Assembly (NCBI RefSeq): GCF_004519335.1
Contig: NZ_SOZD01000010.1
Span: forward strand, 1 to 64,000
Source: Jiella endophytica
GTDB lineage: Bacteria; Pseudomonadota; Alphaproteobacteria; Rhizobiales; Rhizobiaceae
Length of the DNA: 64,000 nt
Direction: 5' to 3'
In this document: positions 9,903 through 48,318 of the stretch, in pieces
Layout of the letters: every line of letters starts with the position of its first letter
Numbering within the stretch: the stretch's first letter is position 1
Notes under the pieces: model-generated
Told to the model about the DNA's origin: nothing
Databases searched by the model: none
Seen by the model: only the letters and a program-made list of their open reading frames with translations
Program-made: the position numbers and the translations under genes

Positions 9903-10916
9903 ATGAAGACCCTGTTGCTCGGAACCGTGTCGATGCTCGCCTTCGGGCTCGCCGCGACCGTGGCCAATGCCGATCCCGCAGGCTGCGATGACGGCGAGAT
10001 GGTGATCAAGTTCAGCCATGTCGTCGCCGCGACCGGCCATCCGAAGGGCGACGCCGCGACGCTGTTCGCCGAGCGCGTCAACAAGGAGATGGAGGGCAAG
10101 GCCTGCATGCAGGTGTTCCCCAACTCCACCCTCTTCGACGACGACAAGGTGATGGAGGCGCTGCTTCTCGGCGACGTCCAGCTGGCCGCGCCGTCGCTGT
10201 CGAAGTTCGAGGCCTATACGCTGAAATACCGGCTGTTCGACCTGCCCTTCCTGTTTCAGGATCTCGACGCCGTCAGCCGCTTCACCCAGTCCGACACCGG
10301 CAAGGGTCTGCTGACCGTGATGGAGGACGTCGGCTATACGGGTCTCGGCTACTGGTCCTCGGGCCTCAAGCAGTTCTCCGCCAACAAGCCGCTGCTCGTG
10401 CCCTCTGACGCCGACGGCCTGAAGTTCCGCATCCAGACCTCCGACGTCGCCGAGGCGATGATCGAGGCGATGGGCGGCTCGGCCCAGAAGCTCGCCTTCA
10501 AGGAGGTCTACGGCGCGCTGCAGACCGGCGTCGTCGACGGCCAGGAGAACACCTGGTCGAACATCTATACCCAGAAGTTCTTCGAGGTGCAGGACGGCGT
10601 CACCGAGACCAACCACCAGCTTCTCGCCTATCTCCTCGTCACCTCCACCGAATGGCTGAACGGTCTCGATCCCGAGATCCGCGACCAGTTCATGAAGATC
10701 GCCGAGGAGGTCACCGTCGAGGCCAACAACGCCGTCGCCGAGACCGAGAAGAAGAACCGCCAGAACATCATCGACGCCGGCGGCGAGGTGCGGGAACTCA
10801 CCCCCGAGCAGCGCAAGCAGTGGGTCGACACGATGAAGCCGGTCTGGGCGAAGTTCACCGACGACATCGGCCAGGAGAACATCGACGCGGCGATGGCGGC
10901 GAACGCCACCAACTGA
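9903..10916 (+). CDS. dctP: TRAP transporter substrate-binding protein, DctP family
   Basis: 337 aa. Periplasmic binding protein that delivers an organic acid to the DctQM permease. Signal peptide at residues 1-23 (cut after ANA). Family segments are present: IKFSHVVAATGHPKGDAA, the central GLKFRIQTSDVAEAMIEAMGG with the Arg that usually clamps a substrate carboxylate, and VDGQENTWSNIYTQKFFEVQ. The start follows GGAGGAGAAGACTG. The sequence is close to C4-dicarboxylate binders, but the substrate cannot be fixed by eye. Confidence 0.93.
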   Translation: MKTLLLGTVSMLAFGLAATVANADPAGCDDGEMVIKFSHVVAATGHPKGDAATLFAERVNKEMEGKACMQVFPNSTLFDDDKVMEALLLGDVQLAAPSLSKFEAYTLKYRLFDLPFLFQDLDAVSRFTQSDTGKGLLTVMEDVGYTGLGYWSSGLKQFSANKPLLVPSDADGLKFRIQTSDVAEAMIEAMGGSAQKLAFKEVYGALQTGVVDGQENTWSNIYTQKFFEVQDGVTETNHQLLAYLLVTSTEWLNGLDPEIRDQFMKIAEEVTVEANNAVAETEKKNRQNIIDAGGEVRELTPEQRKQWVDTMKPVWAKFTDDIGQENIDAAMAANATN

Positions 10917-30855: not shown

Positions 30856-31371
30856 TCAGGCCGATTGCCGCAGACCCGGGAGCATGCGCTTCAGTGCCGG
30901 CGAGCGGAACCAGAAATGCTGGGCGAGCGCGCCGACGATGTGCAGGCCGATCAGGGCGAGCAGCGGGTTCCAGAGGAAGGCGTGGTAGCCGGCGAGGTCG
31001 TCATTGCCGGTGAACCAGGCGGCAAGGCCGAGGACCGGCATGACCAGCAGCACTGTGTAGAGCAGGAAATGCGTGACCCGCGCCAGGAGGCTTGCCCATT
31101 TCGGCTCCTGCGCGTCATGGGGCGGCCGGCCGTGGGTGTAGCGATCGATCAGGCGCAGCGCCGCCGCGACGAGGACCAGCGTGCCGAGGACGATATGGCC
31201 GTAGCCGAGGACGGCCGTCGTCGTCCCGATGCTGCCGCCTTCGAGGGTCGCGTCCCAGAAATCGGCCATATACTCGCCCTCGATCCACTGGCAGAGGACG
31301 AGAACGACGATCGTCCAGTGCAGGAAGACATTGAGCCTGCTCCAGGCGGCAGGGCGCGGGGTGTTCGACAT
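30856..31371 (-). CDS. Cytochrome b561 family protein
   Basis: 171 aa, four membrane helices. Heme-ligand histidines lie in VFLHWTIVVLV (helix 1), GYGHIVLGTLVL (helix 2), THFLLYTVLLV (helix 3) and IGLHIVGALAQHFWF (helix 4). These small b561 proteins carry electrons from membrane quinol, sometimes to superoxide. GGAG-N6-ATG fixes the start. A CTATACG operator lies 71 bases upstream. Confidence 0.92.
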   Translation of the reverse strand: MSNTPRPAAWSRLNVFLHWTIVVLVLCQWIEGEYMADFWDATLEGGSIGTTTAVLGYGHIVLGTLVLVAAALRLIDRYTHGRPPHDAQEPKWASLLARVTHFLLYTVLLVMPVLGLAAWFTGNDDLAGYHAFLWNPLLALIGLHIVGALAQHFWFRSPALKRMLPGLRQSA

Positions 31372-31441
31372 CGAGGGCTCCGGCGGCGTTTCACGGTCGC
31401 CGCCTTTCTGCGCCCCGGCCCATGCCGCGCCATTGCTGCGA

Positions 31442-31457
31442 CTATACGGTTGCGTAA
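31442..31457 (-). promoter_or_regulatory. Operator copy 1 (cytochrome b561)
   Basis: CTATACGGTTGCGTAA on the plus strand; read toward the gene it is TTACGCAACCGTATAG. Same motif as at 32709, 33778, 36551 and 47456. The TATAG end could serve as a -10 element. Confidence 0.7.
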
Positions 31458-31483
31458 GCCCGATGCGGAGATCCGATGAGCTG

Positions 31484-31526
31484 AAGCGTCCTTCGCGCGT
31501 CCAACGGAACGCGCGGCGCTCTAAAG
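31484..31526. repeat. Partial palindromic intergenic element
   Basis: GCGCGTCCAACGGAACGCGC flanked by GAAGCGTCCTT and GGCGCTCTAAAG, the boundary half of the dispersed element. It reaches the stop of the EamA gene. Confidence 0.6.
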
Positions 31527-31952
31527 GCTGACCAGCCAGGCGCCGAGCGCGATGAGGGCGATGCCGAGCCAGTTCGCCGGCGCCAGCTTCTCGCCCAGGA
31601 AGGCGACGCCGAAGACGGCGACGAGAACCACCGACAGCTTGTCGATCGGCGCGACCCTGGCGGCGTCGCCGAGTTTCAGGGCGCGGAAGTAGCACAGCCA
31701 CGAGGCGCCGGTCGCAAGGCCGGACAGCGCGAGGAAGACCAGCGAGCGGGCCGGCAGCGAGGCCGGCGAGCGCCACTGCCTGGTCAGCGCGACGATGACG
31801 GCGAGCAATGCCACGACGACGAGGGTGCGCAGAAGCGTCGCGAGGTCGGAGGGAACGTCCGACACGCCGACCTTGGCGAGGATCGCCGTCAATGCGGCGA
31901 AGGCGGCGGCAAGCAGCGCCCAGAACTGCCAGCTGGCGATCAAGCCTGTCAT
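31521..31952 (-). CDS. Single-domain EamA/DMT-family transporter
   Basis: 143 aa, five membrane helices, one EamA module instead of the usual two. Characteristic ends: WQFWALLAAAFAALTAILAKVG at the start and VAPIDKLSVVLVAVFGVAFLGEKLAPANWLGIALIALGAWLV at the end. Such half-size members work as dimers. Start follows AGGAACGAC. Substrate unknown. It sits between the b561 and PepSY genes but has no CTATACG operator of its own. Confidence 0.88.
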   Translation of the reverse strand: MTGLIASWQFWALLAAAFAALTAILAKVGVSDVPSDLATLLRTLVVVALLAVIVALTRQWRSPASLPARSLVFLALSGLATGASWLCYFRALKLGDAARVAPIDKLSVVLVAVFGVAFLGEKLAPANWLGIALIALGAWLVSL

Positions 31953-32056
31953 GTCGTTCCTGTTTTCCCGGTCGATGGGAGCGATGCGGATTCACTATCG
32001 CAAAGATCGCCGGCGCGCAGCCTTCCCGACCAAGAGCGCCAATGGCGGGCTTCGTG

Positions 32057-32153
32057 CGACGCGTGTTCGATCCGACGCGCCGAGAACGCTCCGAAAGCTC
32101 GAACCCGCACCTCAGCCGGCCCGGAAATCGATGCCGATTTCCGGGCCGGTGCT
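32057..32153. repeat. Palindromic intergenic element, full copy
   Basis: GTTCGATCCGACGCGC box, GAACGCTCCGAAAGCTC spacer, then a long dyad GGCCCGGAAATCGATGCCGA/TTTCCGGGCC. It fills the space between the EamA promoter region and the end of the PepSY gene. Confidence 0.7.
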
Positions 32154-32233
32154 GCCGCCGACAGACGGGCTTTTCCTGTCGGCAGAGACGTCTTCCCGCG
32201 AAACGACGCGAAGCCGGCGAGGCAAGCGAGAGG

Positions 32234-32626
32234 TCAGTCGGCGTCGTCGCCCTCTTCGGAGTCGTCTGCCGTCTTGTCCATTTTGTCCTTGGACTCGTCC
32301 GAGGCGTTCTGGTCGATCTTGCCCGACTGGGTGTCGACCATCACGGTCTTCACCGATCCGTCGGCCTGGCTGAGCTCGATCTCCCAGGCATTGTCGCCCT
32401 TCTCGTCGGAGATCGCTGCGTCGAACGCCTTGCCGCCCACCGTCTGCTCGGCCTTGGCGACGGCGTCGGCGAGGGTGATTTTCGCCGCCGTGACCTTCTG
32501 CATTTCGGCCTGGTCGGTTTCGCCTCGATTGGTCTCCGCGGCGAGCGCGGAACCGCCGGCGGCAAGGGCGGCGAGGGCGCCGAGGGTTGCGATCGTCAGA
32601 CGGGATGTATGGGTCCTGGTCTTCAT
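32234..32626 (-). CDS. Small periplasmic PepSY-domain protein
   Basis: 130 aa. Signal peptide 1-29 (cut after ALA), then one PepSY domain: KITLADAVAKAEQTVGGKAF, WEIELSQADGSVKTVMVDTQSGKI. The tail is very acidic (DSEEGDDAD). PepSY proteins are common in envelope-stress regulons and are thought to act as inhibitors or metal-binding modules. AGGAAG upstream supports the start. An operator copy lies 83 bases upstream. Confidence 0.9.
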   Translation of the reverse strand: MKTRTHTSRLTIATLGALAALAAGGSALAAETNRGETDQAEMQKVTAAKITLADAVAKAEQTVGGKAFDAAISDEKGDNAWEIELSQADGSVKTVMVDTQSGKIDQNASDESKDKMDKTADDSEEGDDAD

Positions 32627-32708
32627 CTTCGAGCTTCCTTGTTGAGAGCCACCGGTTTCGGGCTCGGGTGAAAGATGGAGGCTGAAGATGACCGCCAAAG
32701 CTCCGGTA

Positions 32709-32724
32709 CTATACGGATGATCAT
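32709..32724 (-). promoter_or_regulatory. Operator copy 2 (PepSY gene)
   Basis: CTATACGGATGATCAT; toward the gene ATGATCATCCGTATAG. The CGTATAG half is identical to the other copies; the distal half is the most divergent of the five. Confidence 0.6.
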
Positions 32725-32852
32725 AGGGGGCAAGCTGCGGAGATGACGATGCAAACCGCCATCCGCGTGAATGCGCGGACGGCGGTCGGGCAGGTGGGGC
32801 GTGGCGGTCGGACGAGCGCTGCCGGCGGCTTCGACCCGTCCGGCGCGGCCGC

Positions 32853-33653
32853 TCAGTTCGCGCTTGCGGCTGTCTCAATCCTGTCCTTCTTCGTCACCGA
32901 CAGATACGCCACCATGGCGGCGATCACGGCAAGGAAGGCGACGCTCGTTCCGGTCGTCCCGAGACCGAGCCCGCCATTGTTCGTCGGCTGCGAGAGGAGG
33001 TCGCCGATCGATGCGCCGAAGGGGCGGGTGAGGATGTAGGCGATCCAGAAGGTGAGCACCGCGTCGGCACCGGCCTTGTAGGCCGCGTAGACGGCGGCGA
33101 TGAACGTTCCGAACATCAGGGCCGAGATCAGATAGCCGAGGCCGAACTGTTCGGAGACGAGGTCGCCCGCCGCGGTGCCCAGAGCGAAGGTGAAAAGGAT
33201 CGCCGCCCAGTAGAAGAGCTCGCGCCGGCGCGTGGTGATCGAATGGATCGAGAGCGTCCGCTCGTTGGCGTACCAGGCGACGAAGGTGACGGCGAGGGCG
33301 GCCGCAAAGACGATCGTCGTCGTCAGAAGGCTGATGCCGAGGTCGTCGGCCATGTAGTCGGAGACGAGGGTACCGACGACCGAGACGAAGACGACGACCA
33401 GCCAGTAGCTGACCGGGACATATTCGCGCAGCCGCAGCTGAAACGCCAGAAAGGCGGCCAGAAGAAGCGCCATGATCGCCGACGTCGCGACGAGGCCGAA
33501 GCCGAGATTGAAGATCAGGAAGTCTGCCGCCGTCTCGCCGACGGTCGTCGCCATGATCTTGATCACCCAGAAGGCGAGGGTGATCTGCGGCACCTTGTTG
33601 AGCAGCTCTTCGGACAGAGCCGATCGTTCCGAGGTCGATTGCGTGAGGGTCAT
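32853..33653 (-). CDS. COG4705-type integral membrane protein, function unknown
   Basis: 266 aa, seven to eight membrane segments in two similar halves: KIMATTVGETAADFLIFNLGFG and ILFTFALGTAAGDLVSEQFGLGY. The repeated T(V/A)GxxxxD motif inside helices is characteristic of this uncharacterised family and could bind a cation. Starts at ATG 33653. Operator copy 3 lies 125 bases upstream. Confidence 0.85.
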   Translation of the reverse strand: MTLTQSTSERSALSEELLNKVPQITLAFWVIKIMATTVGETAADFLIFNLGFGLVATSAIMALLLAAFLAFQLRLREYVPVSYWLVVVFVSVVGTLVSDYMADDLGISLLTTTIVFAAALAVTFVAWYANERTLSIHSITTRRRELFYWAAILFTFALGTAAGDLVSEQFGLGYLISALMFGTFIAAVYAAYKAGADAVLTFWIAYILTRPFGASIGDLLSQPTNNGGLGLGTTGTSVAFLAVIAAMVAYLSVTKKDRIETAASAN

Positions 33654-33777
33654 CTGACTGATCCGGTTGATTGCGGGGGCATGACGCAGGCGAGCGCCGC
33701 CGGCCGAGGTCGCGCGGGCATGCGCCGGCTTGCACGGACAGTCGTAGGAACGGGGTGTTGAGGGCGTCTGTCGCCGG

Positions 33778-33793
33778 CTATACGCTTCGGTAA
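33778..33793 (-). promoter_or_regulatory. Operator copy 3 (COG4705-type gene)
   Basis: CTATACGCTTCGGTAA; toward the gene TTACCGAAGCGTATAG. It lies 11 bases beyond the histidine kinase stop, so it is between two same-strand transcription units and must serve the COG4705-type gene. Confidence 0.7.
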
Positions 33794-33803
33794 GTTGCAG
33801 CCG

Positions 33804-35207
33804 TCACGGCCGATGATCGGCGATCGGCAGGGCGACGCGAACCTTGAGGCCCGGCTCGTTGTCGAGGGCGCAAGCGGTGCCGCCGTGGAGCTCGGCAATG
33901 GCGGCGACGAGGGCGAGGCCGAGGCCGTTGCCGGGGGTCGTGCGGCTCTGGTCGCGGCGGTAGAGCCGGCGGAAGATCTTTTCCCGTTCGGCTTCCGGCA
34001 CACCCGGACCGTCGTCGCCGACGTCGAGGAAAGCGAGCGGCCCGTCGCGGCGCAGGGTGATCTCGATCCGCCCCGGCGCCGGCACGTGGTTGATGGCGTT
34101 CTCGATCAGATTGGCGAGGAGCTGGGTCAGAAGCTCCTCGTCGCCCTCGACGGTCAGCGGCTCAAGCCGTTCGGCGACGAGACGGTGGCCGGCATCCTCG
34201 GCGACGCCGGCATAGATCTCGGCGGTCTTCTCGACGATCGCCGCGAGATCGATCTGGCAAAAGCGCGAGCGCCGCGTGCCGGCCTCGATCTGGGCGATCC
34301 GCAGAAGCGCGTGGAAGGTCTCGATCGCCGCGTCGCTCTCGTCGATCGCCGCATCGAGCCCGGCCTCGTATTCGGCCAGCGATCGCGGCCTGCGGCGCAG
34401 GGCGTCGAGCCGCTGCCTGAGGCGGGCGAGCGGCGTCCTCAGATCGTGGGCAATGTCGGTCGAGACCTGCCGCAGGCTCTCGACCAGCGTCTCGATGCGG
34501 GTCAGCATGGCATTGATGTCGGCCGCCAGCCGGTCGAGCTCGTCGCCCCGCCGCGAGACCGGCAGGCGCAGATCGAACCGGCCTTCGACGATCTGCCGGG
34601 TGGTGAGGGCGATCTCGTCGACCCGGCGCGTCGGCCCGCGGGAGATCAGGAAGCCGCCGACCAGCGCCAGGATCGCCAGTGCCAGGACGCCGATCCACAT
34701 GGCCGAGAGGATGATCTCCTGGGTCTCGTCGAGAATGTGCGAATTGCGCCCGAGCATCACCCGATAGGGGCCGACCGTCTCGCCGAGGGCGAGGAAGATC
34801 ACCTCGTGGTCCTCGTTGTCGGCGGCGGCGGCGCGCAGATCCGGCGCCGCATCGGTCGTCTCGTGCGGCAGCTTGCGCTGCTGCCAGCCGGACTGCCAGA
34901 GCGTTGCCGGGACATTGCCGGCGTGCCGCCCGCCCGCCTGGTCGAGGACGAGGACGAAGCGGTCCTCGGAGGCCGATTCGGCGAGTTCGGACATGGTTTC
35001 GTCCAGACCCTCCTCTCCTCCCTTGTCGAGGGTCTGGCGGAGCTCTCCCATATCGGCCTTTATCGAGGATCTGAGGGCATCCGCCATTTCGGCCGAGGCG
35101 ATGACGTAGATCGTCCCCAGGATGGCGAGAACGGAAAACACGAAGAAGCCGGTGTAGATCAGCGCCACCCGGAAGGAGATCGACCGGAATTCCTCTGGCC
35201 AGATCAT
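33804..35207 (-). CDS. Sensor histidine kinase
   Basis: 467 aa. Two membrane segments (about 12-36 and 166-188) frame a periplasmic sensor of about 130 residues, then HAMP, HisKA with phospho-acceptor H254 in STDIAHDLRTPLARL, and HATPase with LANLIENAINHV, DDGPGVP and GNGLGLALV. Classic EnvZ/QseC-like layout. Its ATG directly follows the response regulator stop, so the two are translationally coupled. Predicted to phosphorylate that regulator. Confidence 0.95.
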   Translation of the reverse strand: MIWPEEFRSISFRVALIYTGFFVFSVLAILGTIYVIASAEMADALRSSIKADMGELRQTLDKGGEEGLDETMSELAESASEDRFVLVLDQAGGRHAGNVPATLWQSGWQQRKLPHETTDAAPDLRAAAADNEDHEVIFLALGETVGPYRVMLGRNSHILDETQEIILSAMWIGVLALAILALVGGFLISRGPTRRVDEIALTTRQIVEGRFDLRLPVSRRGDELDRLAADINAMLTRIETLVESLRQVSTDIAHDLRTPLARLRQRLDALRRRPRSLAEYEAGLDAAIDESDAAIETFHALLRIAQIEAGTRRSRFCQIDLAAIVEKTAEIYAGVAEDAGHRLVAERLEPLTVEGDEELLTQLLANLIENAINHVPAPGRIEITLRRDGPLAFLDVGDDGPGVPEAEREKIFRRLYRRDQSRTTPGNGLGLALVAAIAELHGGTACALDNEPGLKVRVALPIADHRP

Positions 35208-35885
35208 TCAGGCCGGCGCGTTCAGAACGTAGCCCGCGCCACGGATGGTGCGGATCATCTCGGCGGAAAACGGCCGGTCGACCTTGGCCCGCAGCCGGCT
35301 GACATGGGTCTCGACGACGTTGGTCTTCGGGTCGAAATGAAAGTCCCACACCCGCTCGAGCAGCATCGTGCGGGTCAGCACCCGGCCGCGATTGCGCATC
35401 ATGTATTCGAGCAGGCGGAACTCGCGCGGCTGCAGCTCGATCTCCCGACCCTCCCGCCGCACCGTCCGGGCGATCAGGTTCATCTCCAGATCGCCGACCT
35501 TCAGGACGGTTTCCTCGCGGCGCAGCGGCGAGCGCCTGGCGAGGGCGTTGAGCCGCGCCATCAGTTCGGAAAAGGCGAAAGGCTTGACCAGATAGTCGTC
35601 GGCGCCCGCCTCGAGGCCTTCTACTCGGTCGTCGAGACCGGAGACGGCGGTGAGGAAGATGACCGGCGTATCGCGGCCGGACGAGCGCAGCGCCCGGATG
35701 ATCGACAGCCCGTCGAGGCCGGGCAGCATGCGGTCGGCGACGACGACGTCGTAGTCGCGGGTGCAGGCGAGTTCGAGCCCCGTCGGTCCGAAGGCGGCGT
35801 GGTCGGGGTCGTGACCTTCCTCCTTCAGCCCGCCGACGATGTAGTCGGCGGTCGAGACATCGTCCTCGATGACGAGCACCTTCAT
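35208..35885 (-). CDS. OmpR/PhoB-family response regulator
   Basis: 225 aa. Receiver domain with acidic D8/D9, phospho-acceptor D51 (VVVADRMLPGLDG), Thr in FLTAVSG and Lys in YLVKPF. C-terminal winged helix (REFRLLEYMMRNRGRVLTRTMLLERVW, ETHVSRLRAKVDRPF, IRTIRGAGYVL). It starts inside the phosphatase stop (ATGA overlap). As the only OmpR-type regulator here, it is the best candidate to bind the CTATACG operators. Confidence 0.96.
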   Translation of the reverse strand: MKVLVIEDDVSTADYIVGGLKEEGHDPDHAAFGPTGLELACTRDYDVVVADRMLPGLDGLSIIRALRSSGRDTPVIFLTAVSGLDDRVEGLEAGADDYLVKPFAFSELMARLNALARRSPLRREETVLKVGDLEMNLIARTVRREGREIELQPREFRLLEYMMRNRGRVLTRTMLLERVWDFHFDPKTNVVETHVSRLRAKVDRPFSAEMIRTIRGAGYVLNAPA

Positions 35886-36487
35886 TGCCGGCCGTTTTCT
35901 CCCGCGACACTCTCGAGACTCTCGCGCGACGCGTTCTCCTGATCGACGAAACGCGCGAAGGCCCGATCCATAGCGCCGGTTCGGCTCGTCAGCCAGGGAA
36001 AATGACCATAGGCAAAGGAAAGCTGGCCGCTCGCGGCCTCGGCGGGGCGCCCGGCAAGGGCATATTCGTAGATCGCGCTGGCGAGCCCCGAGCGGTCGGC
36101 GCCGCCCTTGCAGTGGATCAGCAGCGGCTTCGGCGCGTCGCGGATGGCGGCCTCGATCTCCCGCATCTTCGCCATCGAGGGCTCGCGGTTGGCCGAGATG
36201 CCGATGGAGGTGCTGATCACCCCGTGCTCGGCAGCGACGGCCTCTTCGCCGCGATACCATTCCTCGTCCGGATGGGCGCCCCGCAGGTTGAGGATCGAGC
36301 GGATGCCGTTCGCCTCGATCAGCTGCCGGAGCTGGCCCGGAGCGAGCTGGCCGGAGCGGTAGACGACGCCCGGCTCGACGGCGTGGATATTGCCGGTATA
36401 GGCGAGATAGCCCGCATAGGCTCCGGCCGGGGTGATCAGGAGCCCGGCGGCGAAGAGGGCATTGCGAAGAAATTTGGGAATGTGCAT
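35882..36487 (-). CDS. Membrane-anchored tyrosine/dual-specificity phosphatase-like protein
   Basis: 201 aa from the ATG at 36487. An N-terminal hydrophobic segment (residues 8-29) acts as a signal anchor, so the catalytic domain probably faces the periplasm. The PTP loop is LLIHCKGGADRSGL, with C126 and R132 in the CX5R signature; a general-acid Asp could be D74 (HPDEEW). An upstream ATG at 36532 would leave only 18 bases to the operator, so 36487 is preferred. First gene of the phosphatase-regulator-kinase operon (ATGA overlap). Confidence 0.85.
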   Translation of the reverse strand: MHIPKFLRNALFAAGLLITPAGAYAGYLAYTGNIHAVEPGVVYRSGQLAPGQLRQLIEANGIRSILNLRGAHPDEEWYRGEEAVAAEHGVISTSIGISANREPSMAKMREIEAAIRDAPKPLLIHCKGGADRSGLASAIYEYALAGRPAEAASGQLSFAYGHFPWLTSRTGAMDRAFARFVDQENASRESLESVAGENGRQ

Positions 36488-36550
36488 CGGCGTGTCCGGG
36501 GAAGTGATCCCCGGAACTACCGCCCCATGCATGCCGGCCGATTTCGGCTT

Positions 36551-36566
36551 CTATACGGATCCGTAA
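36551..36566 (-). promoter_or_regulatory. Operator copy 4 (phosphatase-regulator-kinase operon)
   Basis: CTATACGGATCCGTAA; toward the gene TTACGGATCCGTATAG, the most symmetrical copy with an inner TACGGATCCGTA palindrome. It lies 64 bases before the phosphatase start, suggesting autoregulation. Confidence 0.72.
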
Positions 36567-36627
36567 TGTCGCCGGATGCAAGGCTCGAGCACTTCTCGCC
36601 TGCGCCGGAGCCCTGATGCGAGCGTCT

Positions 36628-39348
<2,721 letters not shown>

Positions 39349-39630
39349 GAAAGGGGTCCTTCCCACTAATTCTCTGCGAGGCGACGAGGTCGATCGAACG
39401 TCGGCTGCCGCCGCCGTTCCGGTCGATCGTGGCGTTGTCGGGAGCCTGCAATCTCAGCGGAAGGCGGCTGGACTTTCGGTTGGCGCGAGAGATAAGAGGG
39501 GGCAAATCCGATGTCAACGGCGGCAGGACGCCCCGTTGCGGGCGGCGGCCGAAGCGGCCCCGAAGGGAGCGGCATGCCGAACGTCGGTACCATCCGTTTC
39601 GTCAGAAGTCTTCTGGAAGGAATTCACTCG

Positions 39631-40515
39631 ATGCCAAGAAACCTCAGCGTCCTGCTGGCGGCAGGCGCCTTCGTCGCCGTCGCCCATGGTGCCCTGGCCG
39701 CCGACGGCGACGTGATCGCCACCATCGGCAAGAACAAGGTGACCGAAGCCGAGCTGAAGGCCGCCGAAGCCGAGCTCGGTCCGCAGTTCCAGTCGATGCC
39801 GGAAGAGCGTCGCCGCTTCGCGGTCCTTTCGGCCCTCATCGACATCAAGGCCCTCGCCGCCGAGGCCGAGAAGGCCAAGCTGCAGGACGATCCGAAAGTG
39901 AAGGCGCAGCTCGAATTCGAGCGCGACCGCACCCTGCACAACGCCTATTTCGCCAAGAACGCCGTCAGCGGCGTCACCGATGCCGAGCTCAAGGCCCGCT
40001 ACGACAAGGAAATCAAGGCGATGCCCCCCCGCAAGGAGGTGCATGCCCGGCATATCCTGGTGAAGACCAAGGAAGAGGCCGAGGCGGCCATCAAGGAGCT
40101 CGACGGCGGCGCCGACTTCGAGACCGTCGCCAAGGAGAAGTCCACCGGCCCTTCCGGCCCGGACGGTGGCGATCTCGGCTTCTTCGGCCCCGGTCAGATG
40201 GTCCCGGCTTTCGAAAAGGCCGCCTTCGCGCTGAAGCCCGGCGAATACACCAAGGAGCCGGTGCAGACGCAGTTCGGCTGGCACGTCATCCAGTCGGTGG
40301 AGACCCGCGACGCGCCGCCGCCGGAGTTCGACCAGGTCAAGGATCAGCTCCGCCAGCTCGTGCTGCGCGAGAAGTACATGGCGATGGTCGGCAAGGCGCG
40401 GCAGAGCCTCGGCATCGACTATGTCGACCCGAAGATGAAGGCGCAGGTGGAATCGATCGAGAAAGAGATCGAGAGCGGCACCCCGGCTGCCGCGACCGGC
40501 AAACCCGCCAACTGA
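39631..40515 (+). CDS. Secreted parvulin-type peptidyl-prolyl isomerase
   Basis: 294 aa. Signal peptide 1-23 (cut after ALA), an N-terminal chaperone-like helical region, then a PpiC rotamase domain (about 135-225: [48 protein letters not shown]), and a C-terminal helix. It probably assists folding of exported proteins; divergent from secA, a common rhizobial arrangement. GGAAGG lies upstream of the ATG. Confidence 0.95.
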
Positions 40516-40588
40516 CGCAAAGCCTTGGCCGGTGAGGGCGCGGCGGGTCTTGCCGCCGGCCCTCAGGCCGCTTCGAGGAAGCCAAGCG

Positions 40589-41830
40589 ATGCCCCATGCC
40601 GTTTCGCCGCTCGCGCCGACCAGCCTTGCCGAACTGCCCGAAATCGCGGGCCTTCGCATCGCCACCGCCGAGGCGGGCATCAAGTACAGGAACCGCACCG
40701 ACCTGATGATGATGGTGTTCGACGCGGGGACGACCGTCGCCGGCGTCTTCACCCGGTCGAAATGCCCCTCGGCACCGGTGGATTTCTGCCGGGCCAACCT
40801 TGCCGGCGGCAAGGCGCGGGCGCTGGTCGTCAATTCCGGCAATGCCAATGCCTTCACCGGCCAGCGCGGCCGCGAGGCGACCGCAATGACCGCGGAGGTC
40901 GCGGCGAAGGCCGCGGCTTGCGCGCCGAGCGAGATCTTCCTCGCCTCGACCGGGGTGATCGGCGAGCCGCTCGATGCCGGCCGCTTCTCCCATCTCCTCG
41001 ACGGCCTCGCCAAGGCTGCCGAAGGTGATCGCTGGCGCGCCGCCGCCGAGGCGATCATGACCACCGACACCTATCCGAAGGTCGCGACCCGGACGGTCGA
41101 GATCGCCGGCGTGGCGGTGACGATCAACGGCATCGCCAAGGGCGCCGGCATGATCGCGCCTGACATGGCGACGATGCTCTCCTTTCTTGCCACCGATGCG
41201 CCGATCGCCGCGACCGCCCTGCAGGCGATGCTGCGGCAGGCGGTCGAGCCGAGCTTCAACTCGGTCACCGTCGACAGCGACACCTCGACCTCCGACACGC
41301 TGCTGCTCTTTGCCACCGGCGCTGCCTCCGGGCGGGGCGCTCCGGCGATCGAAGATGCCGGCGACCCGCGGCTCGAGGGCTTCCGCGCGGCGCTCGGCGA
41401 TCTCCTTCTCGACCTTGCCCGCCAGGTCGCCCGCGACGGCGAGGGCGCGCGCAAGGAGATCCAGGTAACGGTCGAGGGCGCGGCGAGCGACCAGGCGGCC
41501 AAGCGCATCGCCCTGTCGATCGCCAATTCGCCGCTGGTCAAGACCGCCGTCGCCGGCGAGGACGCCAATTGGGGCCGCGTCGTCATGGCCGTCGGCAAGG
41601 CCGGCGAGGAGGCCGACCGCGACCGGCTGGCGATCCATTTCGGCGAGATCCGCGTCGCCGTCGACGGCGAGCGCGACCCGGACTATTCGGAGGCCGCGGC
41701 CTCAGAGGTGATGCGCCGCGCCGAGATCCCGATCCGGGTCGAGCTCGGCCTCGGCACCGGCCGCTGGACGGTCTACAGCTGCGATCTCACCAAGGAGTAT
41801 GTCGCGATCAATGGCGATTACCGAAGCTGA
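40589..41830 (+). CDS. argJ: Glutamate N-acetyltransferase / amino-acid acetyltransferase
   Basis: 413 aa. Bifunctional ornithine acetyltransferase of the cyclic arginine pathway. The self-cleavage site is visible in [16 protein letters not shown]: cleavage before T195 makes the alpha and beta chains, and that Thr becomes the nucleophile. Also [19 protein letters not shown] and the C-terminal [11 protein letters not shown]. Start after GAGGAAGCC. The 3' end overlaps the next gene by 32 bases. Confidence 0.97.
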
Positions 41831-42599
41831 GAAGATGCGCCAGTTCGCCGTCGTCCGCCGGCTGGAAGCCGCCGGCTTCCGGGCCTGGCCGGCAACGACG
41901 ACCGCCTTCGACGGGACCTGGGCCGTGCGGCTGACCCGGTCGTTTCCGGCCAAGCGGCTGAATTCGATCAATCCGCTCGATCCCTCCGACACCACCGACA
42001 TTGCCGCAAGGCTGGCGCGGGCCCGCAAGACCTTCGCCGAGGCCGGGCGGACGGTGATCGTGCGCCAGTCGCCGCTCGCCCCGCCGGAACTCGTCGCCCA
42101 TCTCGACGAGGAGGGCTGGGAGCGCTTCGGCGAATCGATCGTCATGACGGTCGAACTGGCGAAGCTCGACTTTTCCGGCTGCATCGACCGGATCCCGCTG
42201 CGTGATACCGCCCGCTATCTCGATGCGAGCCTCTCCGTCCACGGCCGCCCGGCATCGATGCGCTCCGGCCTCGGCGAGATCCTCTCTGCGATCCGGCCGC
42301 CCTGCGGCATGTTCGTGCGAGAGAGCGAGGCCGGCCGGCCGGTGGCGGTCGCCCTGGCGATCCAGGACAACGACCTTGCGGGCCTGCTCGACGTGGCGGT
42401 GGCGCCGGAATGCCAGCGCCAGGGCATCGGCCGCGAACTGGTGCTGACCGCCCTGCGCTATTCCCTGCACAAGGGGGCCAAGACCGGCTGGGTGCAGGTC
42501 GAGGCCGACAATGCGGCGGGCTTCGCCCTTTACGGCCGGCTCGGCTTTGCCGAGGCCTATCGCTACGTCTACCGGGCGCCGCCGGGAGAACGGCCGTGA
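41799..42599 (+). CDS. GNAT-family N-acetyltransferase
   Basis: 266 aa. N-terminal half resembles a degenerate GNAT fold; the C-terminal half has the acetyl-CoA motif [24 protein letters not shown], then [29 protein letters not shown]. The target is unknown. ATG 41799 directly follows AAGGAGT; ATG 41811 is an alternative with more natural spacing. Coupled to argJ upstream and to mutT downstream (GTGA overlap). Confidence 0.9.
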
Positions 42600-43024
42600 G
42601 CGGCAGCGAGGCGAAGCGGCTTCTCCTCGTCGTCGCCTGCGCCCTGCTCGATGCCGATGGCCGGGTGCTGATCGCCCAGCGGCCGGAGGGCAAGTCGCTC
42701 GCCGGGCTCTGGGAGTTTCCGGGCGGCAAGGTCGAGCCGGGGGAATCGCCCGAGGCTGCGCTGATCCGCGAGCTTGCCGAGGAACTCGGCGTCGTGACCC
42801 AGCAAGCCTGCCTCGCTCCGCTGACCTTCGCCAGCCACGCCTATGACGATTTCCACCTTCTGATGCCGCTCTTCGTCTGCCGGAGATATGAGGGCTCGCC
42901 GGCATCGCGCGAGGGCCAGGCGCTGAAATGGGTGCGGGCCGGGGCGTTGCGGGACTATCCGATGCCGCCGGCCGACGCGCCGCTGATCGCCCATCTCGTC
43001 GATCTTCTCGGCCCGAGGAGCTGA
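42596..43024 (+). CDS. mutT: MutT-type Nudix hydrolase (8-oxo-dGTP diphosphatase)
   Basis: 142 aa. Removes oxidised dGTP from the nucleotide pool. The Nudix box is complete: GGKVEPGESPEAALIRELAEELGV, within the segment after GLWEFP. GTG start overlaps the stop of the GNAT gene (GTGA), with GGGAGAA upstream. The order argJ-GNAT-mutT is common in Rhizobiales. Confidence 0.93.
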   Translation: MSGSEAKRLLLVVACALLDADGRVLIAQRPEGKSLAGLWEFPGGKVEPGESPEAALIRELAEELGVVTQQACLAPLTFASHAYDDFHLLMPLFVCRRYEGSPASREGQALKWVRAGALRDYPMPPADAPLIAHLVDLLGPRS

Positions 43025-43206
43025 ATCCTCTGGGTTTCTCGCCGGAAGCCGGCCGGAATACTTCGGCACCCTGCCGAAATCGCTTCGCCGGACGTTACGG
43101 AATGAAAACCATCTCTTGCCTTCGTCTTAACCGATCGTTTGCCCCTTAAGCACTTGTTCAGGCTTTGCCGGCAGTGTCTCGAGACGCGGGATCTGGAGAC
43201 GGCGAG

Positions 43207-43530
43207 ATGAACGAGGGCGAGGGCCTGCGAGAGGCGGAAGTCTACGACGGCAGCCTGCCGGCACGCTTCAAGCCGGCACCCGGCGGCCTGCTTCTGCGCG
43301 GCACCGTTCTCGTTGCCGGCGCGCTCGTCGCTCTGGCGATGGTCATCGTCCCGCTCGTCGACCGCAGCGGCAGCACGCAGCTCGCCTCCGGCGGCCCGGA
43401 TCTCGACATGATGTTCACCGGCTCGATCGACGCTCCCCGCCAGTATGTCATCCGCCGCAGCGTCCTGCAGGCGCCCGGCAGCCCGCCCTGCATCCTGTTT
43501 GCCGACGGCGCCAGCCGCGGAGGCTGCTGA
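43207..43530 (+). CDS. Small single-pass membrane protein upstream of a Flp pilin
   Basis: 107 aa. One hydrophobic segment (about 31-52: LRGTVLVAGALVALAMVIVPLV) preceded by a charged cytoplasmic stretch and followed by about 55 residues that end in a Cys-containing tail (PPCILFADGASRGGC). Start after TGGAGACGGCG. Its stop overlaps the pilin ATG (TGATG), so the two are coupled. Family unknown. Confidence 0.65.
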   Translation: MNEGEGLREAEVYDGSLPARFKPAPGGLLLRGTVLVAGALVALAMVIVPLVDRSGSTQLASGGPDLDMMFTGSIDAPRQYVIRRSVLQAPGSPPCILFADGASRGGC

Positions 43531-43733
43531 TGGGTGGTCCTCGCCTCTCAGCAGCGGGCCGGCAAAGTCGCCTGGGGCGCTTCGCCGGTTGCGAGAGCGG
43601 CGGTACGGCGATCGAATACACCCTCGTCTGTGCCTTCATGGCCGTCGCGCTGATCGCGGCACTCGAATTGCTGCACGATCCGCTGATCACTCTTCTCACC
43701 GACGTCGCGGGGATGATGCAGGTGCCGGGCTAA
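43530..43733 (+). CDS. Flp-family type IVb pilin
   Basis: 67 aa. The prepilin signature is RFAGCESGGTAIEYTLVCAFMAVALIAAL: Gly before the cleavage position, the conserved Glu/Tyr (IEY) and the hydrophobic helix, as in Flp pilins. No tad/cpa assembly genes lie nearby, so it would depend on machinery elsewhere. Confidence 0.85.
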   Translation: MGGPRLSAAGRQSRLGRFAGCESGGTAIEYTLVCAFMAVALIAALELLHDPLITLLTDVAGMMQVPG

Positions 43734-43778
43734 GGCCCGAGACAGGCTTCCCCCGATCCCTGCAAGCGGTTCCGCCGG

Positions 43779-44678
43779 TCAGGAGAGATCCTCCGACCGG
43801 TCCTTCAGCGCTGCCGCAAGGCTCGTCTTGCCACTGCCCGGCCTCAGCGGCTTCTGCTGGCTCTCATGCGGCGACCATCCCGACAGATAGATGACGTCGA
43901 AGCTCGCCCGGATGCGCCCGTCGGGATCGGCGAAGCGCTCGGCATAGATCTCCGCGGCCCGCAGGAAGAAGCGGCGGGTCGCCGGGCGGCGCGAGCGCTC
44001 GGTCAGGACATTGGCCGCTCCCATCGCCCGAAGGTCGCGGGCGAGCGCGAAGAGATTGTCGTAGCGCACGGTCAGCCGGTCGAAATCTGTGACGGGAAGC
44101 GCAAAGCCGCTGCGCTGGAGCAGCGCCCCCGCTTCGCGAATCTCGGTGAACGGGCCGACCCGCGGCGAGACGCCACCGAAGACCTCGCTTTCGGCGTGAA
44201 GCAGCGCCGTGCGCAACTCGTTCAGCGTCTCGCCGCCGAGAAAGGCGGCGAGGAACAGCCCGTCCGGCCGCAGCGCCCGGCGGAGCTGGGCGAGCATTCC
44301 CGGCACGTCGTTGACAAACTGCATCGACAGGGCCGAGACGACGAGATCGACGCTGTCGGGGGCGAGCGGCAGGAACTCCTCGTCCGCCACCACGGCGAGC
44401 GGCTCGTCCTTCAGGAGAAACGCCAGCCGCTCGATCCGGACGACCCGGTCGCAATGGCCGCCCGCCCGCATATACGCCGCCATCTCGCCGAAGAAGCCGC
44501 CAAGGTCCACCGCCACCTCGAAGCGCCGCTCGACGACGGCGAGGCGCTCGGAAAGCTCGGCGGCGACGGCCTTCATCAGGAAGCCGGCGCCCTCGTCCCG
44601 CTCGCCTTGAAGCCAGCGCCGGCGCTGGCGGTCGAGGAGGTCGCGGTCGAAGGGGGCGGGGGAGATTGGTTCGGACAT
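43779..44678 (-). CDS. SAM-dependent methyltransferase fold protein, NDUFAF5/BioC-like
   Basis: 299 aa. SAM-binding motif I (EVAVDLGGFFGEMAAYM) has GG-F-G instead of the typical GxGxG; VVSALSMQFVNDVPGML and RALRPDGLFLAAFLGGETLNELR match the NDUFAF5/BioC group. Mitochondrial NDUFAF5 hydroxylates an Arg of complex I, so the true reaction may not be methylation. The start at 44678 opens with MSEPISPAPFDRDLL, typical for alphaproteobacterial members. Divergent from comF. Confidence 0.85.
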   Translation of the reverse strand: MSEPISPAPFDRDLLDRQRRRWLQGERDEGAGFLMKAVAAELSERLAVVERRFEVAVDLGGFFGEMAAYMRAGGHCDRVVRIERLAFLLKDEPLAVVADEEFLPLAPDSVDLVVSALSMQFVNDVPGMLAQLRRALRPDGLFLAAFLGGETLNELRTALLHAESEVFGGVSPRVGPFTEIREAGALLQRSGFALPVTDFDRLTVRYDNLFALARDLRAMGAANVLTERSRRPATRRFFLRAAEIYAERFADPDGRIRASFDVIYLSGWSPHESQQKPLRPGSGKTSLAAALKDRSEDLS

Positions 44679-44832
44679 CAGCTTGTGTTCGCTCGAAGCG
44701 TCTTTCGTCTTGACGGGGGTAGCTGTCTGCAGGTGGAATGCCGTCAAGGCAAGGTCGGGAGGAAACGTGGCCGGAGACGGTGGCCACGCCGGCCGGCGAT
44801 GGGCCGGCTGCCATGCCTGTGGACCCCAGACG

Positions 44833-45600
44833 ATGCACCTGTTCAAGCGCGGCAGGGCCGCCATCACCAACTCGCTCGGGCGACTGCTGTTTCCGGCGGT
44901 CTGCGCCGGATGCCAGAGCGCGGTGACGCGGGCGGGCAGCGTCTGCCCGGAATGCTGGACGAAGCTGCGCTTCATCGAGCGGCCCTATTGCGAGGTGCTC
45001 GGCCTGCCGTTCTCCTACGATCTCGGCCGGGGCTTTCTGTCCGCCGAGGCGATCGCCGAGCCGCCGCCATTCGGCCGGCTGCGGGCCGCCGTTCTCTATC
45101 AGGACCTCGCCGCCCAGCTGGTCACCGCGCTGAAATACGGCGACCGGACCGACCTCGTGCCGCTGATGGCCGGCTGGATGCGCCGGGCCGGCGACGAGCT
45201 TCTCGGCGAGACCGAGGTGATCGTGCCGGTGCCGCTGCATGCCGGGCGGCTGTGGCGCCGCCGCTTCAACCAGTCGGCCGAGCTCGGGCGGCACATCGCC
45301 CGCCATTCCGGCCTCAGCTTCGCACCGCTGGCCCTGAAGCGCGTCAAGGCGACGCGCACCCAGGTTGGCCTCGGCCAGAAGCAGCGCCAGGACAACATGC
45401 GCGGCGCCTTCCGGGTGGTCGACCCGCGGCGCTTCGAGATCGAGGGCCGGCGGGTGCTCCTGATCGACGACGTCTATACGACCGGGGCAACCGCGGCGAG
45501 CGCGACGCGGGCGCTGAAGCGCGGCGGCGCCCTTGACGTCGACGTCCTCGTCTTCGCCAGAGTCGCCGCCGGCGCCGCACTTGCGACCGGTCCCGGGTAA
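44833..45600 (+). CDS. ComF-family phosphoribosyltransferase-like protein
   Basis: 255 aa. N-terminal zinc-ribbon cysteines (CAGCQ and CPEC), then a type I phosphoribosyltransferase domain with PVPLHAGRLWRRRFNQSAEL and the PRPP loop VLLIDDVYTTGATAAS. ComF proteins aid DNA uptake in naturally competent bacteria; the biochemical role elsewhere is unknown. Start at MHLFKRG, no strong ribosome binding site. Confidence 0.92.
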   Translation: MHLFKRGRAAITNSLGRLLFPAVCAGCQSAVTRAGSVCPECWTKLRFIERPYCEVLGLPFSYDLGRGFLSAEAIAEPPPFGRLRAAVLYQDLAAQLVTALKYGDRTDLVPLMAGWMRRAGDELLGETEVIVPVPLHAGRLWRRRFNQSAELGRHIARHSGLSFAPLALKRVKATRTQVGLGQKQRQDNMRGAFRVVDPRRFEIEGRRVLLIDDVYTTGATAASATRALKRGGALDVDVLVFARVAAGAALATGPG

Positions 45601-45645
45601 GGCCATATCGTTGACGACGAATTCGTGACGAGGATGGTGAGGTCC

Positions 45646-45903
45646 ATGGCCGATGTGACGATCTACACGCGGCAGTTCTGCGGTTTCTGCTCGCGGGCAA
45701 AGCAGCTTCTGGAAAAGAAGGGCGTCGCCTATGAGGAGAAGGACGCCACCTCCTCGCCCGAACTGCGCGCCGAAATGCGCGAACGGGCGAATGGCGGCTC
45801 GACCTTCCCGCAGATCTTCGTCGGCGAGACCCATGTCGGCGGCTGCGACGAACTCTATGCCCTCGACCGGGCCGGCAAGCTCGATCCGCTGCTGGCCGCC
45901 TGA
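45646..45903 (+). CDS. grxC: Glutaredoxin 3
   Basis: 85 aa. Glutathione-dependent disulfide reductase. The active site is CGFC (residues 12-15) instead of the usual CPYC; TFPQIFV (cis-Pro) and GGCDEL bind glutathione. GAGGATGGTGAGG lies upstream of the start. Conserved order with comF and the nitrilase. Confidence 0.95.
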   Translation: MADVTIYTRQFCGFCSRAKQLLEKKGVAYEEKDATSSPELRAEMRERANGGSTFPQIFVGETHVGGCDELYALDRAGKLDPLLAA

Positions 45904-45930
45904 CATCCTGGCCGATCCGGAGAGCCGCTC

Positions 45931-46824
45931 TTGACCAAGTTTCGCGCCGCCGTCCTGCAGATGCGCTCCGGCACCGAGCCGGAGAGAAACGTCGCGGCCT
46001 TTTCGGCGCTGGTCGAAAAGGCCGTCGTGGCGGGCGCAGACTACGTCCAGTCGCCGGAAATGACCGGTATGGTGGAGCGCGACAAGGCCAGCCTCATGGC
46101 GCGGCTGCGACCGGAGGCCGCCGACCCGCTGCTCGCCGAGGCGGCGCGGCTCGCCGCGACACACCGGATCCATGTCCATGTCGGCTCGACGGCGGTGCCG
46201 CTGGAAGACGGGCGCGTTGCCAACCGCGCCTTCCTGTTCGGGCCGGACGGCGGAAAGCTCGCCAGCTACGACAAGATCCACATGTTCGACGTCGATCTCG
46301 ACAATGGCGAGAGCTGGCGCGAATCGCGCACCTACCGCCCGGGAGAGAACGCCGTGACGGCCGATCTCGACTTTAAGGGCGGACCGGCGAGGCTCGGCTT
46401 TGCCGTCTGCTACGACATGCGCTTTCCGCATCTCTTCCGGGAAGAGGCGCTGGCCGGCGCGGAGATCCTCACCTCGCCCGCCGCCTTCACCCGGCAGACC
46501 GGCGAGGCGCACTGGCATGTTCTCCTCAGGGCGCGGGCGATCGAGAACGGCGCCTTCGTGATTGCCGCCGCGCAGGGTGGCCTGCACGAGGACCGGCGGG
46601 AGACCTTTGGCCATTCGCTGATCGTCGATCCCTGGGGCCGGGTGATCGCGGAGGTCGATGGCAACGAGCCGGGCATCGCGGTCGCCGAGATCGACACCGC
46701 CGCCGTCGCTGATGCACGGGCAAAGATCCCGAACCTTGTGAATGCCAGGCCCTTCGCTGTTCCGGGAGCAGCCGGGGGTAGCGGCGAGACGATCCGCGTC
46801 ACCGGCGCGCTGGCGGCCGAGTAA
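45931..46824 (+). CDS. Carbon-nitrogen hydrolase, Nit1/deaminated-glutathione amidase type
   Basis: 297 aa. Nitrilase-superfamily Glu-Lys-Cys triad: Glu in YVQSPEMTG, Lys in SYDKIHMFDVD, Cys in FAVCYDMRFPHLF. The last two segments are typical of Nit1, which repairs deaminated glutathione, and this fits the position next to glutaredoxin. TTG start after GGAGAGCC. The stop overlaps the next ATG (TAATG). Confidence 0.92.
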   Translation: MTKFRAAVLQMRSGTEPERNVAAFSALVEKAVVAGADYVQSPEMTGMVERDKASLMARLRPEAADPLLAEAARLAATHRIHVHVGSTAVPLEDGRVANRAFLFGPDGGKLASYDKIHMFDVDLDNGESWRESRTYRPGENAVTADLDFKGGPARLGFAVCYDMRFPHLFREEALAGAEILTSPAAFTRQTGEAHWHVLLRARAIENGAFVIAAAQGGLHEDRRETFGHSLIVDPWGRVIAEVDGNEPGIAVAEIDTAAVADARAKIPNLVNARPFAVPGAAGGSGETIRVTGALAAE

Positions 46825-47381
46825 TGATTCATTTCCAGCTCCGCTGCCGACCGTCCGGCCATGGCTTCGACGGCTGGTTCCGCTCCAGCGCCGACTTCGA
46901 GCGGCAGGCCGAGGCCGGTCTCGTCGAGTGTCCGGTCTGCCGGTCGGGCGAGGTCGAAAAGGCGCTGATGCGCCCGGCGATCGCAAAGGGTGACGCGGGC
47001 TCCATGGCAGCGGCGATGGAACGGGCGTCCGGCATGGCCGCCCCGGAGGCTGCCGGGCCGTCCGGCGAGGCGCAGGCGGGTCCCGGCGGCGCAGTGGTTC
47101 CGGCCGGGCCGGCGGCATCGCCGCAGACCCTCGCCAATTTCGCGCCGACCCATCCCGAAGTGGCGAAGGCCTTTGCCGCCCTGCAGGCGATTTCGCGCAA
47201 GGTGCGCGCCGAGGCCGACTATGTCGGGCCGAAATTCGCCGAGGAGGCGCGGCGCATCCACTATGGCGAGAGCGAAGCCCGGCAGATCTTCGGCGAAGCG
47301 TCCAAGCAGGACGTCGAGGGGCTGAAGGAAGAGGGGATCACCGCATTGCCGCTGATGCCGCTGCCGGAAGACGGCCAATAG
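46824..47381 (+). CDS. DUF1178 family protein
   Basis: 185 aa. N-terminal zinc-ribbon-like part (MIHFQLRCRPSGHGFDGWFRSSADFERQ, then LVECPVC), a Gly/Ala/Pro-rich linker, and a C-terminal helical part ending GEASKQDVEGLKEEGITALPLMPLPED. This is the standard DUF1178 architecture, function unknown. Coupled to the nitrilase gene by one-base overlap. Confidence 0.93.
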   Translation: MIHFQLRCRPSGHGFDGWFRSSADFERQAEAGLVECPVCRSGEVEKALMRPAIAKGDAGSMAAAMERASGMAAPEAAGPSGEAQAGPGGAVVPAGPAASPQTLANFAPTHPEVAKAFAALQAISRKVRAEADYVGPKFAEEARRIHYGESEARQIFGEASKQDVEGLKEEGITALPLMPLPEDGQ

Positions 47382-47455
47382 GCGCCTAAAGGCTCGCCCG
47401 CGAGCGAGGGGATCACGATGACCGAGGGCTGAGCCGGCCCTCCGGCGCCCGACCT

Positions 47456-47471
47456 ATACGAAACCGTATAG
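47456..47471 (+). promoter_or_regulatory. Operator copy 5 (dedA)
   Basis: ATACGAAACCGTATAG on the strand of dedA; with two more bases it is the perfect dyad CTATACG-AAAC-CGTATAG. It lies about 150 bases before the dedA start and 11 kb from the two-component operon. Confidence 0.68.
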
Positions 47472-47619
47472 CGGACGGGTGATCCGGCGGGCGCATCGCT
47501 GCGTTATGGGATCCGGAGGGGCATCGCCTCGAGCCATTTCGCATCGGCACGGCCGGAGGAAACACCGGTTTCGCTCCACGCCGCGACAGAGCCTTTTTGC
47601 AGTCACCGGACCCATCTGC

Positions 47620-48318
47620 ATGTCATCCATCATCGCCACCGTCTCCGAATGGCTCGTCGCCGTCATTTCCGCGCTCGGACTGCCGGGGATCGTTCTCCTG
47701 ATGGCGCTGGAATCGGCCTGCCTGCCGATCCCGTCAGAAATCGTCATGCCATTTGCCGGCTATCTCGTCTCGACCGGACGCTTCGACCTGATCTCGGTCG
47801 CTCTGGCAGGGGCGATCGGCTGCAATCTCGGTTCGTGGGCCGCCTATGCCGTCGGCGCCAGGGGCGGCCGTCGGCTGGTCGAAAGACTGAGCCGGCGCTC
47901 GGTCTTCGGCTCGCGCGAACTCGCCCTGTCGGAGCGGTTCTTCGCGCGCTACGGCGCCTCGGCGACCTTCTTCTCGCGCATGCTGCCGGTGGTCCGCACC
48001 TTCATCGCGCTGCCGGCCGGCATGGCGCGGATGCCGCAGCTGCAGTTCCACCTCTACACCTTTGTCGGCTCGTTCATCTGGTGCCTCGGCCTTGCCTGGA
48101 TCGGGCAGCTTCTCGGCAGACACTGGAGCGACAGCCCGGCGCTGCACAGCGCCTTCCACGTCGCCGACGGTCTGATCGTCGTCGCGCTTCTGGCGGCAGG
48201 CCTGTGGTACTGGCGCTCCCGGCGGCGGCCGGCCACGGCCGAGGTGCCGGGCGACGTCGGAACGCCAGGCCGCGAGCCGCAATGCGGCGGAAGCGGGACA
48301 TCGGATCGCACGGCCTGA
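47620..48318 (+). CDS. DedA-family membrane protein
   Basis: 232 aa with five or six hydrophobic segments. DedA motifs: ESACLPIPSEIVMPFAGYLV (re-entrant helix with conserved Glu), GCNLGSWAAYAVGARGGRR, and FFSRMLPVVRTFIALPAGMARM (the FxRxxPxxRxxxxxxAG motif). Homologues are lipid flippases or scramblases and affect antimicrobial peptide resistance. The start MSSIIATVSEW is chosen by family length. Confidence 0.92.
   Translation: MSSIIATVSEWLVAVISALGLPGIVLLMALESACLPIPSEIVMPFAGYLVSTGRFDLISVALAGAIGCNLGSWAAYAVGARGGRRLVERLSRRSVFGSRELALSERFFARYGASATFFSRMLPVVRTFIALPAGMARMPQLQFHLYTFVGSFIWCLGLAWIGQLLGRHWSDSPALHSAFHVADGLIVVALLAAGLWYWRSRRRPATAEVPGDVGTPGREPQCGGSGTSDRTA

Follow-up and report, generated by a model that had tools for sequence, protein, structure and literature searches.

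A small envelope-gene regulon in Jiella endophytica very probably answers to a sensor-regulator pair, judging from sequence comparisons. In the window analysed here (the whole stretch of 64,000 nt, within which all positions are given and whose genome is labelled G000), copies of a palindromic site precede five transcription units: the genes for a cytochrome b561 family protein, a small PepSY protein, a DUF347 membrane protein and a DedA protein, and an operon encoding a phosphatase-like protein, a response regulator (RR) and a histidine kinase (HK). These sites are in all likelihood the operators of the OmpR-type regulator encoded at 35208-35885, which would activate the five units as an envelope regulon. 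On this reading, five promoters gain a regulator, a DNA-binding site and a likely mode of control, and become parts of one response. The target genes are mostly uncharacterised envelope genes (DUF347, the small PepSY protein, b561 and DedA).

Operator sites and their specificity

The first-pass annotation had described five copies of a 16-base palindrome, and all five were located (at 31442, 32709, 33778, 36551 and 47454-47471). The palindrome is real, and its better form is an 18-bp site, CTATACS-N4-SGTATAG. Four copies lie on the minus strand: CTTACGCAACCGTATAGT upstream of b561 (31441..31458), with counterparts ahead of b561 in 12 other genomes; TATGATCATCCGTATAGT upstream of PepSY (32708..32725), with counterparts in G005 and G223; CTTACCGAAGCGTATAGC upstream of DUF347 (33777..33794), with DUF347 sites also in G155, G168 and G223; and ATTACGGATCCGTATAGA, a motif match upstream of the phosphatase-RR-HK operon (36550..36567), through which the operon would be autoregulated. 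The fifth, CTATACGAAACCGTATAG, lies on the plus strand upstream of dedA (47454..47471), is the most symmetric of the five and is conserved at dedA in G002, G005 and G008. Measured to the start codons chosen in this analysis, the distances from site to start are 70 (b561), 82 (PepSY), 124 (DUF347), 63 (phosphatase) and 148 (dedA) bases, near the figures given earlier. The PepSY site counts as a fifth palindrome by one good half only, its second half being degenerate. It has an operator-only score of 11.7, against 21.8-30.1 for the remaining four, and is the fourth best match in the window when the downstream module described below is also scored. The congener G005 carries TATAATCATCCGTATAG ahead of PepSY, and G223 a full site.

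The motif had been expected to occur only at these genes, which is true of the fuller palindrome and not of the half-site. The half-site CTATACGG has six copies in the window, where shuffles predict 0.14, and those at 10334 and 50030 lie in long open frames; only the fuller palindrome is therefore specific to these genes, and CTATACGG alone was dropped as a regulon marker for its copies within genes. A scan of the 5.25-Mb genome with WTACSNANSCGTATAG, allowing at most one mismatch, returned four matches, at b561, DUF347, the phosphatase-RR-HK operon and dedA (control, two matches). The looser WTACSNNNNSGTATA gave seven rows in the whole genome, comprising the same four places (dedA on both strands) and two in long open frames; its backward-pattern control gave two.

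Association of the sites with the regulator

The sites can be tied to the regulator at 35208-35885, as the first-pass annotation had proposed, by co-occurrence over 247 genomes, by sites at regulator promoters and by related palindromes ahead of homologues. Within the genus, the regulator was found at 88-100% identity in 8 of 10 genomes and is absent from G006 and G008. Within the family, it was found at E<=1e-90 in 31 of 247 genomes, and in 12 of those it is at least 71% identical. The exact site occurs in 9 of these 12 genomes and in 8 of the 235 others, with one match each (Fisher 6e-10), the 71% line having been set after the matches were seen. When all regulators at E<=1e-90 are taken, the site occurs in 10 of 31 genomes against 7 of 216 (Fisher 2.5e-6). 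All 19 exact matches in the nine genomes share the contig of the regulator and fall within about 13 kb. At least one operator is present in the cluster of 17 of the 18 distinct ortholog genomes, and the motif was indeed found upstream of orthologues in 16 of the 18, either at the promoter of the regulator operon or in the region shared with a divergent eptA.

A candidate promoter module downstream of the operator

The sites were compared across 18 genomes, of which 17 have the regulator and the other is G008; from them, 46 were picked by hand among weight-matrix matches near the RR cluster or dedA. The operator score threshold was 13.5, and a weaker match in G001 (12.2) was excluded. By target, they comprise 10 RR/DSP, 6 eptA/RR, 13 b561, 5 DUF347, 3 PepSY, 5 dedA, 2 PAP2 and 2 VTT-PAP2 sites. 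Each was taken in one orientation; six regulator-promoter sites (G031, G074, G111, G134, G231 and G250) were turned toward the divergent eptA after the first profile had been made. The first weight matrix included sites of the window genome, so the search was blind in its downstream part but not for the operator.

Between species, the 18-mer is kept and the flanks diverge. One half-site reads TAC followed mostly by C or G, and the other, GTATAG, is better conserved. Further downstream, G23 is conserved in 43 of the 46 sites, A26 in 38 and A50 in 37, with TA at 49-50 in 22. A GGCMAT-like patch at positions 22-27 from the operator start, about one helical turn past the palindrome, is conserved in most promoters; it may be an unusual -35 or a further in-phase half-site of the kind described for AgrR. 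We infer that the downstream bases are a weak -35-like element and a -10, which would place the operator centre near -52. From this spacing, putative -10 elements are placed on the minus strand at 31405..31410 for b561 (positions 49-54 after the operator start), 32672..32677 for PepSY, 33741..33746 for DUF347 and 36514..36519 for the phosphatase-RR-HK operon. The putative -10 of dedA (47505..47510, plus strand) is two bases out of register and the weakest of the five. Transcription starts are predicted near 31398, 32665, 33734, 36507 and 47515.

With a model of the downstream bases only, built from other genomes including congeners with orthologous promoters, the p values were 6e-5 for the phosphatase (DSP) promoter, 1e-5 for b561, 1.9e-4 for PepSY and 8.4e-4 for DUF347. 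A composite model of 24 sites from other genera only ranked DSP, b561, DUF347 and PepSY first to fourth in the window and dedA, on its two strands, fifth and sixth (12.5 and 9.8); the next window score was 7.5. The spacing to the downstream module is fixed for four of the five window sites. A sigma-70 consensus scan gave no excess (2 against 1.1 in shuffles), which fits activator-dependent promoters and proves nothing.

The opposite arrangement, in which the box overlaps the promoter, TATAG is the -10 and the regulator represses, is improbable. GTATAG is -10-like and the better conserved half, yet the base that follows TATAG varies (T in 25 of 46), whereas a -10 would call for T there, and a distinct A/TA-rich position comes 49-50 bases later, at a fixed spacing. 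The promoter-proximal half is likewise the better conserved one in AgrR, which is an activator (PMC7380067).

Other candidate binders and adverse observations

More doubtful still is the possibility that the operators serve a different DNA-binding protein, for example a paralogous regulator on contig G000:C24, and stand near the two-component system by linkage. G008 fits it in having the paralogue and a dedA site without the regulator. Against it, the paralogue (56-59% identical) occurs in 9 of 10 genus genomes whether or not sites occur and has a different recognition helix, the stretch around it contains no site (best operator score 2.8), and, among the genes compared, no DNA-binding protein other than the regulator is shared by the clusters. 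In the window genome, the paralogue (196144-196812; L189, L256) is 59% identical, is accompanied by a kinase and has the recognition helix NVIDVHIS. It was rejected as a regulon member, its score lying below the threshold of 13.5, as was a DSP paralogue on G000:C11, whose stretch has no operator (best score 8.8).

Several observations weigh against activation of all five units by the regulator at 35208-35885. The downstream module of dedA has a p of 0.455 in register; when it may shift by up to 3, p is 0.0024 (best shift +2). The backward-pattern control over the 247 genomes gave no match in the 12 and 36 in the 235, compared with a real total of 27; because control matches exceed real ones, it is the association and not the total that serves as evidence. 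No site was seen in the 12 kb inspected in G035, whose regulator is 83% identical, and G001 has none at the regulator promoter and one ahead of b561-eptA only. G008 lacks the regulator and keeps a dedA-type site (L155, 2579-2596). The regulator itself reaches 251.6 bits on its best family model, NCBIfam TIGR01387 (cztR_silR_copR), short of the cut-off of 279.2.

The G008 site lies 442 bp ahead of dedA and has GTATGG replacing GTATAG in the proximal half, which suggests an orphan or decaying operator. Another match in this genome, C34:155829, falls within open frames and was not counted. In G001 (L186/L255), the kinase match is split into two parts that lie in different frames, and no operator is left at the promoter of the regulator; the two-component system may be decaying there.

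That the sites recur by chance, which the first-pass annotation had called unlikely, or are a dispersed repeat with no regulatory role has next to no probability: half-sites do occur inside genes, four of the eight single exact matches in genomes without a close ortholog lie inside open frames of more than 400 codons, and the one-mismatch matches genus-wide (34) are not above the control (40) and were dropped as evidence, but the orthologous positions, the linkage to the regulator, the held-out model with its ranking and the Fisher association all contradict it.

Genes of the candidate regulon

On the minus strand, the candidate regulon comprises the genes for the cytochrome b561 family protein (30856..31371; PF01292), the small PepSY protein (32234..32626; PF03413) and the COG4705-type DUF347 membrane protein (32853..33653; PF03988), followed by the sensor histidine kinase (33804..35207; HAMP in Pfam), the OmpR-type response regulator proposed as the binder (35208..35885) and the DSP/tyrosine-phosphatase-like protein (35882..36487, start chosen; PF13350, PF22741 and PF22784 above cut-off), whose gene is the first of its operon. 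The DedA protein, with a VTT domain, is encoded on the plus strand (47620..48318) and reaches 130 bits on the UptA model, below the cut-off of 250. In G002, the DedA match (C10:6122-6787, L157) contains one in-frame TAG. A 143-residue single-domain EamA protein is encoded between PepSY and b561 (31521-31952) without a site of its own; it adjoins b561 or the kinase in several relatives too.

The best family of the kinase is TIGR01386 (cztS_silS_copS; 204.6 bits, cut-off 292.55), and its nearest solved chain is HprS. The regulator reaches 166.1 bits on the PmrA model NF007928, below its cut-off of 330. By these scores, regulator and kinase are close to, but outside, the heavy-metal subfamilies. 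The window kinase contains ELAE, a candidate metal-binding motif; among 16 aligned sensors of the 18 (G001, whose match splits into two frames, and G250 were omitted), [DE]xx[DE] is present in 15 and the strict ExxE in 8.

The candidate regulon and its sites in relatives

Six genomes (G031, G074, G111, G134, G231 and G250) carry a divergent EptA homologue, with the site placed between it and the regulator; in G134, the homologue reaches 551.7 bits on NF028537, phosphoethanolamine--lipid A transferase (cut-off 500). In G168, G223 and G001, eptA lies downstream of b561 on the same strand. Sites also precede PAP2 and VTT-PAP2 (DedA-PAP2 fusion) genes in G168 and G223, and G223 has sites at dedA, PAP2, b561, VTT-PAP2, two DUF347 genes, PepSY and the DSP operon. 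An EptA query found no match in the window genome and, among the 10 genus genomes, a strong one in G001 alone and a weak one in G009. No cus/cop/czc, copper or silver efflux genes were seen at the sites found. The regulon suggests, by its sequence neighbourhoods, a ColRS/PmrAB-like envelope type rather than metal efflux. For the earlier idea of an envelope/redox response, the envelope-related targets bear out the first part; the redox part would come from b561 alone. The likeliest input would be metal or cationic envelope stress. Earlier reports describe DUF347 as a proposed metal transporter that is lead-induced together with an undecaprenyl phosphatase in Frankia (PMC4531530), and a PepSY protein, UipA, that binds uranium (PMC8963506).

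Palindromes of this kind were scored ahead of 97 regulator homologues. They reached the threshold for 21 of the 29 homologues that have a Cop/Cus-type helix, for 8 of the 21 that have the ETH helix of the window clade, for 1 of 24 with an IDVH helix and for 3 of 23 others, compared with 7.3% of random segments. The score favours ATTAC-type halves, L034 and L185 are one locus, and the scan misses operators ahead of the phosphatase gene because it covered only 250 bp before each regulator gene. Related palindromes also stand ahead of many more distant homologues, at distances of mostly about 45-90 bp from the homologue's own gene. The Pseudomonas aeruginosa PA7 homologue (L085) has ATTACGATGCTGTCAG, whose opposite strand fits the CopR consensus. 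By this comparison, the window box is a drifted relative of the CopR-type box.

Proposed mechanism and its implications

In the mechanism that we infer, from binding and dimer formation to activation, signal and physiology, a CopR/CusR-like OmpR-family regulator, probably dimeric, would bind two inverted 6-bp half-sites that are 4 bp apart. Once activated by the kinase, it would sit about 52 bp before the transcription start and recruit RNA polymerase to promoters whose -35 is weak and non-canonical, activating its own operon, DUF347, PepSY, b561 and dedA. Under metal or cationic stress, the regulon would most likely protect or remodel the envelope (lipid A, undecaprenyl-phosphate chemistry), in the manner of ColRS and PmrAB. 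A possible history, to which we give somewhat less than even weight, is that a CopR-class regulator (normally a copper, silver or zinc switch) was rewired within this lineage of Alphaproteobacteria to a ColRS/PmrAB-like lipid A and undecaprenyl-phosphate remodelling regulon, half-sites and recognition helix drifting together, and that the regulon outlived the loss of eptA in most Jiella-like species, leaving b561, DUF347, PepSY and dedA. Within one regulator family, operators also range naturally from the ATTACA to the TATACS type, a series that lends itself to testing how recognition helix and operator are linked. The findings also suggest that some Alphaproteobacteria modify lipid A under the control of a CopR-like and not a PmrA-like system.

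Comparison with known systems

AgrR binds ATKACANNNNTGTMAT, a 6-4-6 inverted repeat centred at -43.5, and activates transcription, the promoter-proximal half being better conserved (PMC7380067); the P. aeruginosa CopR consensus is CTGACAn5GTAAT (PMC7380067, PMC11195947). The window system resembles AgrR, CopR and CusR in its inverted repeat within 16 bp, with the 6-4-6 geometry of AgrR also present at the window regulator's own promoter, and in its better conserved promoter-proximal half, and would resemble them in autoregulation and in type II activation with a poor -35 (PMC7380067, PMC11195947). It differs in its half-sites, TTACS/TATACS and SGTATAG instead of ATTACA/TGTAAT, in the absence of copper, silver and czc efflux genes from the targets found here, and in that its regulator and kinase fall below the family cut-offs. 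Its predicted operator centre near -52 is also slightly farther upstream than that of AgrR.

ColRS controls eptA and lpxE, responds to zinc and has a sensor with a Glu-X-X-Glu motif (PMC8306577). With the site ahead of eptA and PAP2, the target list in relatives is reminiscent of the lipid A remodelling systems ColRS/RaxRH (eptA, lpxE) and PmrAB, as well as of mcr neighbourhoods with pap2 (PMC10285318). Unlike in ColRS and PmrAB, no EptA match was found in the window genome with the query used, and the window regulator scores far lower on the PmrA model than on the CopR model. UzcRS of Caulobacter crescentus regulates envelope genes through an 18-bp site of partial palindromic symmetry that lies 43 or 53 bp ahead of the start (PMC8963506). 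It is likewise alphaproteobacterial, with envelope genes and an 18-bp site at a comparable distance, but its motif is CATTAC-N6-TTAA with 57 binding regions, whereas GTATAG half-sites and five linked promoters are found here. No paper was found joining three of cytochrome b561, PepSY, response regulator and DUF347, and no alphaproteobacterial system of this kind was found among papers judged by titles and abstract openings, neither of which is proof that it is unpublished. The type of system is known; its operator sequence and regulon are a new variant.

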